Below, piece by piece: positions 5,615-11,977 of a stretch of 39,780 nucleotides of DNA. The notes below the pieces were generated by a model, which saw nothing but the letters and a program-made list of their open reading frames with translations, searched no databases and was not told where the DNA came from. Source of the stretch: Candidatus Tepidiaquacellales bacterium OLB5 (GTDB taxonomy: Bacteria; Bacteroidota; Ignavibacteria; Tepidaquicellales; OLB5). The position numbers and the translations under genes were made by a program. Numbering within the stretch: the stretch's first letter is position 1; every line of letters starts with the position of its first letter. The DNA lies in the NCBI GenBank assembly GCA_001567545.1, contig LLZO01000104.1, positions 1 to 39,780 on the forward strand, given 5' to 3'.

Positions 5615-6937
5615 ATGAAACGTATACTTTTTACATCTATATTAACCCTATTATTAAATAATTTTATCTCTGCTCAGTGGATTGAACAGCAGTCCGGAGT
5701 AACTTCACAGTTAAATGCGGTTAGTTCACCTGCACCGCCTGTGTTCAATCAGGGTTGGATTTGCGGTAATAACGGAGTTGTTTTACGAACTACTAACAAT
5801 GGAAACAATTGGGCTAATGTATCTTCCGGAATTCCTGTAAATATTGATCTGTTCAGTATTCGTGCAGTAAATTCTCAAATGGTTTTTACATCCGGCAAAA
5901 ACCCATCAGGTACATCTTTCATTTTCAGAACAACAAATAGCGGATTAAACTGGTCAGTAGTTCATACCCAGACAAACATAACTAATTATGGATTTGCTGA
6001 AATTTATGGTACTTATTATCTTATTGCATCACCTCTTAACAGCAGGTGGCAGATTTGGAGGTCAACTAACAGTGGAGTAAGTTGGGATTCAGCCGGATTA
6101 TACCTGCCTCAATCCGGTTCTGAAACTGGATTTATTAACTCTGTTTATTCCCTTGAAGAAAAGATTTGGTTTGGCACAAATAACTCTAGAATTTACCGTT
6201 CGTTTTGGGGTGGTAACTGGCAAGCGCTTTCTACTGTTCCATTAGTCAATTCAAGGTCTGTAGTTTTTCAGTATTTGCTTACCGAGGCAGTTGGCTCTGG
6301 TATATGCGGAGATATAAACATTATTAAATCTACAAATCTAGGATCTAATTGGTTGCCTCTAAACACCGCAGGAAACGGTTTTGTTTCCGGTACGGCATGT
6401 CACCCTGGTTTAATTGGCAAATTCTGGTATACAAAAAATCAATTCATTTATACTAATTCAGCGTCTGATACCTTTGCACTTCAATATACAGCTCCTGCAG
6501 GAAATTATACTCACATTGGTGCAAATTATCTTGGTTCTGCTGCCGTATGGGCAGTTCGCGATAACGGTGGGATTTCCAAATATACCGGAGAAATCGGTAT
6601 TCAAACAATATCAACAGAAATCCCTGAGTTATTTTCCCTTTCCCAAAACTATCCAAATCCTTTTAATCCGTCAACTATTATACGATTTCAAATTCCCCTC
6701 TTGTCTACGACCCCTTTGGGGAGAGGGGTGTCCGGCGAAGCCGGACGGGGTGTGTTCACATTGCTTAAAGTATACGATATACTCGGAAATGATATCACAA
6801 CTCTCCTTAACCAACAGCTTTCCCCGGGTACTTATTCAATTGACTGGGATGGTTCAAATTACCCCAGCGGTCTGTATTTTTATACTCTCAGGTCAGGTGA
6901 TTATACAGAAACCAAAAAGATGATCCTTCTTAAATAA
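5615..6937 (+). CDS. Ycf48/Asp-box-like T9SS cargo with palindromic insert in sorting domain
   Basis: A 440-residue secreted protein. The start at 5615 gives a clean signal peptide (MKRILFTSILTLLLNNFISAQ); an in-frame ATG 39 bp upstream would add polar residues and lies before the likely transcription start. The body has repeated TTNNGNNW-type motifs (TTNSGLNW, STNSGVSW) with GWICGNNGVV, as in Ycf48-like photosystem-assembly-factor propellers, which in this phylum are general surface proteins. The sorting domain starts at FSLSQNYPNPFNPS and ends ETKKMILLK. Between FQIP and LKVYDILG, where relatives have about five residues, there are about 22 (LLSTTPLGRGVSGEAGRGVF), encoded by a GC-rich double palindrome at 6694-6757. 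The frame stays open through it, so the protein is probably still made. Confidence 0.87.
   Translation: MKRILFTSILTLLLNNFISAQWIEQQSGVTSQLNAVSSPAPPVFNQGWICGNNGVVLRTTNNGNNWANVSSGIPVNIDLFSIRAVNSQMVFTSGKNPSGTSFIFRTTNSGLNWSVVHTQTNITNYGFAEIYGTYYLIASPLNSRWQIWRSTNSGVSWDSAGLYLPQSGSETGFINSVYSLEEKIWFGTNNSRIYRSFWGGNWQALSTVPLVNSRSVVFQYLLTEAVGSGICGDINIIKSTNLGSNWLPLNTAGNGFVSGTACHPGLIGKFWYTKNQFIYTNSASDTFALQYTAPAGNYTHIGANYLGSAAVWAVRDNGGISKYTGEIGIQTISTEIPELFSLSQNYPNPFNPSTIIRFQIPLLSTTPLGRGVSGEAGRGVFTLLKVYDILGNDITTLLNQQLSPGTYSIDWDGSNYPSGLYFYTLRSGDYTETKKMILLK
6694..6757. repeat. GC-rich double-hairpin element inside T9SS sorting domain
   Basis: A GC-rich palindromic unit sits in otherwise AT-rich coding DNA. CCCCTC (from 6695) pairs with GAGGGG (to 6728), with a nested CCCC-TTT-GGGG. 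It is followed by a perfect stem TCCGGC-GAA-GCCGGA (6731-6745). It is translated in frame as part of the sorting domain. A shorter relative lies at 11752-11793 at the same protein position in another gene. Confidence 0.75.
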
Positions 6938-10726: not shown

Positions 10727-11977
10727 ATGAATAAATTTATCATAACTTTATTCCTCTTTTATTTCTCATCGGCTTATACTCAATGGAATCAGCTTACAAC
10801 CGGCACAACTGCCGACCTCAGATCCCTGTTCTTTCTGAATCCAAACACCGGGTACTCATGCGGTGCATCAGGCACAGTTATTAAAACTACCAATGGCGGT
10901 ATAAACTGGAGTTCCTTAAATTCAGGGTTAACGGATAATTTAAACTCAATATATTTCCTCACTCCGCAGACAGGCTATGCCTGCGGCAATGCCGGGAAAA
11001 TAATTTATACTTCAAACGGCGGGTTGAACTGGATTGCAGCACAAAGCAGCGTTACCGATAATCTGTTTTCTATTCACGGAAATTTTTGCACAGGTTCAAA
11101 CGGAAACCTTCTGGTTACTACAAACGGAGGAATTAACTGGCAGGTATCTGCCGGAGGATTCCTTTCTACATATTACGGCATAACTTCACTTTCTGCTTCA
11201 ACAGCCGCTGCATGCGGCGTTAATACAATTTTTCAGCCTTTAATTGCCCGTACAACCAACGGTGGAATAAACTGGAGCTATTCATCATTTTATCTTAATG
11301 GAAATGAAGGTAACCTGCGCGATATCATTTATCTGAATGCCTCCTCAATGCTGGCAGTATCAAATGTGTGGGACGGAACAGGCGGTATTTCGTTTTCATC
11401 AAACAGCGGGGTTAACTGGAGCACCCAGCTTTTCAGCCTGCCGCTTAACAGCATTGATATGGCAGGTTCATTTGGTTTTTCTGCCGGCTTGCAGGGTTAT
11501 GTACTTAAAACAACTGACCAGGGAATTTCCTGGCAGCAATCACAAACGGGATTAACGGCAAATTTCAGGTGCGCCGATATAATTGATTCTCTTAATGCAT
11601 ACATTTGCGGTGACGGAGGAGTTATTATTAAAACCACCAATGGCGGAATAACATTTATCCAGCCCATATCAAATAATACCCCCGAAAAATTTTCCCTCTC
11701 ACAAAATTATCCTAACCCGTTCAATCCCTCAACAACAATTCGTTTTTCAATTCCCCTCTTGAGAGGGGTGTCTGGCGAAGCCGGGCGGGGTATGTTTACA
11801 TTACTAAAAATTTACGATATCCTTGGCAATGAAATAGAAACTCTTGTAAACCAATCTATAGCTCCCGGAACTTATTCAGTTGAATGGAACGCCGCAAACT
11901 ATCCCAGTGGTGTATATTTCTATACATTAAGCTCAGGTGATTTCAGGCAAACATATAAAATGGTGCTGATAAAATAA
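10727..11977 (+). CDS. Ycf48-like propeller T9SS cargo with palindromic insert
   Basis: A 416-residue secreted protein with a signal peptide (MNKFIITLFLFYFSSAYTQ). Its repeated motifs TTNGGINW, TSNGGLNW, TTDQGISW, GYSCGASGTV and AYICGDGGVI are the Ycf48/photosystem-stability-factor-like seven-bladed propeller signature, here used as a surface protein module with no link to photosynthesis. The sorting domain FSLSQNYPNPFNPS to QTYKMVLIK is interrupted between FSIP and LKIYDILG by LLRGVSGEAGRGMFTL. That insert is encoded by a GC-rich palindrome related to the one in the gene ending at 6937. Function is otherwise unknown. It sits between two metal-related gene groups, but nothing in it suggests metal binding. 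Confidence 0.87.
   Translation: MNKFIITLFLFYFSSAYTQWNQLTTGTTADLRSLFFLNPNTGYSCGASGTVIKTTNGGINWSSLNSGLTDNLNSIYFLTPQTGYACGNAGKIIYTSNGGLNWIAAQSSVTDNLFSIHGNFCTGSNGNLLVTTNGGINWQVSAGGFLSTYYGITSLSASTAAACGVNTIFQPLIARTTNGGINWSYSSFYLNGNEGNLRDIIYLNASSMLAVSNVWDGTGGISFSSNSGVNWSTQLFSLPLNSIDMAGSFGFSAGLQGYVLKTTDQGISWQQSQTGLTANFRCADIIDSLNAYICGDGGVIIKTTNGGITFIQPISNNTPEKFSLSQNYPNPFNPSTTIRFSIPLLRGVSGEAGRGMFTLLKIYDILGNEIETLVNQSIAPGTYSVEWNAANYPSGVYFYTLSSGDFRQTYKMVLIK
11752..11793. repeat. GC-rich double-hairpin element inside T9SS sorting domain
   Basis: CCCCTC-TTGA-GAGGGG is followed by a second stem, CTGGC-GAA-GCCGG. It is a shorter copy of the element at 6694-6757: the second stem differs by substitutions that keep pairing through G-T wobble, and the inner CCCC-TTT-GGGG part is absent. 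It is translated in frame as LLRGVSGEAGRGM at the same sorting-domain loop. Confidence 0.75.

Follow-up and report, generated by a model that had tools for sequence, protein, structure and literature searches.

Short palindromic repeats that are translated as part of bacterial proteins are known from a few systems. Rickettsia palindromic elements (RPEs) are 105-146 bp long with terminal inverted repeats of ~12 bp (PMC2229807), they enter many unrelated protein genes (PMC2229807, PMC10969869), and one RPE-bearing enzyme has been found to be both translated and active (PMC2229807). Intragenic REPs of the GTAG and CGTC super-families are small, mainly intergenic palindromes, some of which are translated in open reading frames; in recB, two Xanthomonas species have distinct REPs at nearly the same position, which gives a precedent for one site hosting several repeats, and an association with RAYT has been reported for GTAG REPs only (PMC3733652). 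The MITE-derived fusions of ERIC and of the 107-bp Correia/NEMIS element are likewise translated mobile repeats in frame with genes (PMC2229807). In the literature searched, mostly without subscription papers, we found no report of palindromes in type IX secretion system (T9SS) signals.

The window, i.e., the whole 39,780-nt stretch of DNA analyzed here (G000:C104, from a genome assembly of 3.27 Mb in 389 contigs), contains a T9SS cargo gene whose C-terminal sorting domain (CTD) carries a two-hairpin palindromic repeat that we call E1 (E1 to E5 are labels coined in this analysis; Table 1). The repeat is read through in frame (...FQIP-LLSTTPLGRGVSGEAGRGVFTL-LKVYDILG...), giving the predicted insert-spanning peptide stretch IPLLRGVSGEAGRGVF, and the C-termini of the two E1-bearing window proteins scored 29.6 bits (5615..6937 product) and 31.1 bits against TIGR04183 (curated cut-off 23), which bears out the original prediction of an open frame in an otherwise intact domain. 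As had also been proposed, the beta2-beta3 loop of this product is expanded to 22 residues, compared with 6 in 135 of 216 parsed CTDs, a set that includes a few CTDs from G022 and whose proportions are not base rates, the CTD sets outside the 400-kb samples being E1-enriched by retrieval. The hairpin arms, the nested CCCC-TTT-GGGG (6711-6721) and the TCCGGC-GAA-GCCGGA stem that the prediction outlined were all located, while the limits of the repeat had to be moved from 6694-6757 to 6692-6756. The 18 extra nucleotides in the loop of hairpin 1 (TCTACGACCCCTTTGGGG) were missing from all other E1 copies in the same genome and share ACGACCCCTTTGGG with an E2-type palindrome of a congener (G010:C65:10437); judging from these letters, they possibly represent a nested second repeat. 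The folding energy of the window copy was unremarkable (z = -1.72, with 11 of 200 shuffles folding equally well), and it is recurrence in the genome and in congeners, not folding energy, that places it beyond chance.

Table 1. Repeat-bearing T9SS cargo genes in the window and the elements within them
Feature	Position	Strand	Basis
T9SS cargo gene with Ycf48/BNR-like repeats and type A sorting domain; bears the main E1 copy	5615..6937	+	Frame translation, profile search
T9SS type A C-terminal sorting domain (CTD, TIGR04183), beta2-beta3 loop expanded	6617..6934	+	Profile search, loop parsing, structure model
E1 palindromic repeat, in frame (IPLLSTTPLGRGVSGEAGRGVF); left constant end ATTCCCCTC, right constant end GGGGTGTGTT	6692..6756	+	
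Hairpin 1 of window E1, arms CCCCTC (6695-6700) and GAGGGG (6723-6728)	6695..6728	+	
Extra 18 nt (6 codons), TCTACGACCCCTTTGGGG, within hairpin 1 loop	6704..6721	+	
Hairpin 2 of window E1, perfect stem TCCGGC-GAA-GCCGGA; hypervariable part of the family	6731..6745	+	
Second neighboring T9SS cargo gene, palindrome in same CTD loop	7096..9546	+	
E2 palindrome GAGACGACCC-ggt-GGGTCGTCTC, in frame (ALETTRWVVS), beta2-beta3 loop	9349..9371	+	
Third neighboring T9SS cargo gene, palindrome in same CTD loop	10727..11977	+	
E1 copy without nested hairpin (IPLLRGVSGEAGRGMF), same loop and frame as main copy	11750..11796	+	

E1 copies consist of ATTCCCCTCTYGAGAGGGGTG, a variable second hairpin and GGGGTGTGT. 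Their left end, (A)ATTCCCCTCTYGAGAGGGGTG, and their right end, GGGGTGTGT(T), are constant, little sequence is conserved outside these ends, and the size is roughly 40-66 bp (mostly 39-66 bp between the constant ends). Hairpin 2 took 104 distinct sequences in 130 copies, 100 of which fold to a stem of at least 3 pairs (three groups counted separately), and the 20 distinct versions found in CTD-located copies each had such a stem. At individual loci in the genus and in G022 (e.g., L086, L098 and L124), this hairpin was seen to be hypervariable yet palindromic, both arms changing together with the ends constant. The unit is not unique in the genome, uniqueness being the outcome that the original prediction had named as telling against it: a hairpin 1 pattern search found about 11 further copies there, as well as 2-48 copies in each of 12 sampled congeners (12/12), with no matches for a reversed control pattern. 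No copies were found in most other genera of the order, the exception being G022 from another family (52 copies), and the named records with one well-conserved E1 version were Ignavibacteria assemblies without exception. These counts rest on the hairpin 1 pattern, which misses diverged copies, because MAFFT misaligned the variable hairpin and thereby precluded a covariance model. No family matching E1 was found in Rfam. A shorter form lacking hairpin 2 (CCCCTCTYGAGAGGGGTTAGGGGTGTGTT), to which copies in G103 and G140 had pointed, had no match in 198 genomes across the phylum at up to 3 mismatches, so an origin of E1 from such a form is unsupported. Two viral contigs from IMG/VR (L146 and L147) carry the exact E1 left end together with hairpin 1.

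Although most E1 copies read in context were intergenic, about 44 of some 48 in-gene copies examined in the genus lay in the CTD beta2-beta3 loop, between 'F-x-IP' and 'L-x-IYD', in one orientation and frame, so that the preference for one frame and for T9SS sorting domains raised in the original prediction was found among the in-gene copies. The remaining ~4, counted from open frames rather than annotation, fell in the linker of a large cargo protein (two in G002, one in G010) and in a cysteine desulfurase-like gene (G002). All 38 measurable CTD copies were stop-free and divisible by 3 in length, as against 24 of 82 other copies with a length of 0 mod 3 (P = 3.7e-15), and random insertion in coding DNA would strike one of ~300 CTD loops with p near 0.003 per copy. 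Within an unselected 400 kb of G008, 8 of the 9 E1-related copies seen were in CTDs (one listed match being the same copy on the opposite strand), which represent few independent events because each of the two clusters consists of tandem paralogues. An affinity of E1 for CTDs is not universal: G022 (another family of the order) has at least 150 CTDs, yet none of its 49 classified copies was in one. Type A CTDs are very abundant in G000, G002, G008 and G022, with 206-338 first-look candidates per 2.9-3.7 Mb genome, 150 of which were scored in each.

Three single loci deserve mention. The copy in the cysteine desulfurase-like gene (L158, G002:C1:1152449-1155470, minus strand) is open in frame (NSPLERGTAKQGGVF) and comes nearest to the classic RPE case, the enzyme name being taken from sequence reading rather than from a profile search. 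An E1-like copy in another family of the order (L066, G041:C363) is in frame in a large YD-repeat (RHS-like) protein, in a frame that differs from that of the CTD copies. L099 (G002:C5:115587-118608) is apparently a decayed cargo gene: what is left of its CTD holds an expanded E1 insert, and the part upstream is interrupted by stops.

The beta2-beta3 loop is not E1's alone: it hosts at least four palindrome families, which corrects the single-unit picture of the original prediction. Three neighboring cargo genes in the window carry E1, E2 and E1 there, and the window's other 7 CTDs have no such insert. Parsing of CTDs revealed that long loops are mostly palindromes of differing families, namely E1, E2 (GAGACGACCC-GGGTCGTCTC), E3 (CATCTCCCCCTGAAAGGGGGAGAC...) and E4 (GAACGGTCGTGACCGTTC), and that E2 and E4 are also genomic repeats, E4 chiefly in G009. 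E2 may be a GTAG-type REP, some copies reading GTAGAGACG... and others not. In seven congeners (G010, G004, G002, G006, G009, G008 and G007), the best match to the window protein (49-58% identity; orthology assigned by best match alone) invariably had an insert in this loop, either E1, E3 or E4, and a close G010 paralogue carries E2. A further candidate family, E5 (TCAAATGTCAAA..., 'SNVK'), has the look of a repeated short word, not of a palindrome, and was left uncounted. In a sample of G022:C2 (L317-L336), at least two genes have this loop occupied by another short repeat (TCAAATGTCAAA..., 'SNVKSQMSNVK'). Palindromes were also observed in a second CTD loop (beta6-beta7, 'YYYKL...ETKKM'), with GTCCTTCGACAGGCTCAGGAC in G002 (L101, L281; G002:C6) and the E2-like GTAGAGACGTCCCagcGGGACGTCTTTAC in G012 (L275; G012:C12), and some G002 domains have both loops occupied.

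We modeled a 111-residue fragment with AlphaFold2 (73 CTDs), in which the insert spans approximately residues 33-50. The model is a seven-stranded beta sandwich with pLDDT above 90 over most of the beta core, and the insert, at a pLDDT of about 55-62, lies between strands 24-31 and 51-59; the weak Foldseek matches of the model include the T9SS CTDs 8qb1 and 8glk_D (E = 2e-3 to 6e-3). Among solved T9SS CTDs, loop lengths vary, including that of the beta2-beta3 connector, and secretion requires motifs in the beta3-beta4 loop and the C-terminus (PMC11285876). The insert sits in the variable beta2-beta3 loop, away from both. The model places the insert in what would be a floppy loop, apart from the motifs that secretion is known to require. 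The simplest reading is that the insert is tolerated, and the change in sorting or anchoring considered in the original prediction gained no support from these results. A long connector of 13 residues is present in the same loop of mirolase from T. forsythia (8qb1), where, unlike the window insert, the extension is not described as repeat-derived in the portion of the report available (PMC11285876).

Set against the described systems, E1 resembles RPEs in being a short palindrome that occurs intergenically as well as in frame inside protein genes, and differs from them in its length of about 40-66 bp, its mostly intergenic location and the concentration of in-gene copies in one secretion-domain loop. 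Its ends, ATTCC and GGGGTGTGT, are not mutual inverted repeats, and its size is below that of RPEs; the likeness to RPEs claimed in the original prediction thus holds for behavior, an open frame within genes, and not for size and terminal repeats. E1 is best read as an element that works like RPEs without being one, the published RPE size and terminal repeats setting it apart. With intragenic REPs it shares small size, mostly intergenic placement and translation of some copies within open reading frames, but its conserved ends, AATTCC and GGGGTGTGTT, bear no GTAG/CGTC tag, it contains an additional, hypervariable hairpin, and it shows no RAYT association: E1 lay near 2 of the 30 Y1_Tnp loci examined, one of these being a CTD copy, and no mobilizing enzyme for E1 was found at these loci. 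Compared with MITEs, E1 has no inverted-repeat ends, and the flanks of 83 non-CTD copies contained no conserved sequence beyond AATT, whereas ERIC and Correia/NEMIS are larger and have terminal inverted repeats and target-site duplications (PMC2229807).

To trace how the inserts spread, we compared E1-bearing CTDs with each other. Non-tandem pairs had flanks that were mostly 0.65-0.76 identical, about like any CTD pair, and inserts that were about 0.70-0.92 identical. On a CTD tree inferred without the loop, which is built from short domains and poorly resolved, 46 of 204 tips bear E1 and at least 26 state changes are required, compared with 36-46 in 200 shuffles. The diverged flanks and the minimum of 26 changes indicate that E1 does not simply co-travel with the domain, and its clustering on the tree (26 vs 36-46) implies that part of the count reflects duplication or conversion. 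Orthologues in G002 and G008 (proteins up to 84-87% identical) share inserts, so some of these predate the species split. In four orthologue pairs, the insert was 92% identical compared with 84% for the CTD flanks (P = 0.008), which either homogenization or constraint would produce and which mere tolerance does not predict.

E1 is a multi-copy repeat whose ends are constant and whose middle is hypervariable though still palindromic; its frame is kept open in every intact CTD that carries it, and it shares its loop with other palindrome families. Probably, then, E1 is a ~40-66 bp, two-hairpin repeat of an Ignavibacteria genus, normally intergenic, that has become an in-frame part of the beta2-beta3 loop in T9SS type A CTDs and persists there as a tolerated translated insert. 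Such persistence would follow from the loop being exposed and dispensable, the 200-300 or so CTDs per genome would offer a large target, and selection would purge frame-breaking copies, leaving a Gly/Arg/Ser-rich loop of 12-23 residues that may form a flexible bulge tolerated by the export machinery. The inserts could have reached so many domains by repeated insertion, the ATTCC end of E1 matching the domain's Ile-Pro codons (ATT-CCN); alternatively, gene conversion could have passed short tracts from one paralogous CTD to another.

A narrower form of this conversion route, whose probability overlaps with that of tolerated insertion as a whole, dispenses with repeated insertion: one or a few founding CTD insertions, followed by duplication and gene conversion among 200-300 paralogous domains. 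We regard this as a real but lesser possibility. It fits the inserts common to tandem paralogues (L093, L101, L107, L108 and L112), the clustering of E1 on the CTD tree, the length classes of CTD copies (39/45/60/66), mostly unlike the common non-CTD classes (49/47/46), the E1-free CTDs of G022 and the occupation of three neighboring cargo genes in the window. Against it, the flanks of non-tandem E1-bearing CTDs are as diverged as those of any pair, which would confine conversion tracts to near the size of the insert; E2, E3 and E4 are found at this position too, even among near relatives of a single gene; and 20 distinct hairpin 2 versions occur among the CTD copies. That a chance GC-rich palindrome or an assembly artefact underlies the window copy, as its single-sequence folding z of only -1.72 and the fragmentation of its genome into 389 contigs might suggest, has virtually no probability left, because independent genomes from other species in the genus, low-contig assemblies among them (one in two contigs), have the same repeat at the same codon of the same domain, and this recurrence also disposes of the artefact that the original prediction had named as a way of failing.

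Instead of being tolerated, the longer loop might be selected, either altering how the shuttle or attachment machinery recognizes the domain or displaying a useful surface peptide, with palindromes as recurrent raw material. This is unlikely. In its favor, the best match in each of the seven congeners and the window protein itself all bear an insert, compared with about one-quarter of the CTDs in the unselected 400 kb of G008, and orthologue inserts are more conserved than their flanks; against it, the orthologues are few and non-independent, the peptides share neither sequence nor length, most CTDs have none, and the loop is naturally variable. The broader proposal that the loop would be selected for length and variability, with the lineage's active palindromic repeats recruited to it such that selfish repeats recurrently diversify the surface or sorting part of a secretion signal, appears slightly more doubtful. 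Still less probable is a role of the palindrome as RNA or DNA, with translation being incidental; it would then stabilize or attenuate the mRNA close to the gene's 3' end, for example, a role that has been proposed for REPs. All 20 distinct CTD hairpin 2 sequences retain a stem of at least 3 pairs, and E1-type (L005) and E2-type palindromes also occur directly downstream of CTD genes; on the other hand, translating ribosomes unfold hairpins in mRNA and would do so here, pairs are missing from one E2 loop of G008 (GAGATAACCC..GGATCGTCTC) that has nevertheless kept its frame, and stem quality did not differ significantly between CTD and other copies (P = 0.38). By the same comparison, a relaxation of hairpin 2 pairing in CTD copies was not significant.

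Previously known cases, the translated palindromic repeats of Rickettsia and scattered intragenic REPs, usually lie in unrelated genes. Here, several repeat families of one genus converge on one loop of a domain present in some 200-300 copies per genome, which makes this loop a place where translated "junk" DNA is tolerated and unusually crowded. Anyone who annotates the T9SS cargo of this group, or applies sequence models to it, will encounter repeat-derived peptides and should be correspondingly cautious. Collectively, these loops provide dozens of natural experiments on what secretion signals tolerate, and a tractable case for distinguishing neutral passengers from raw material.
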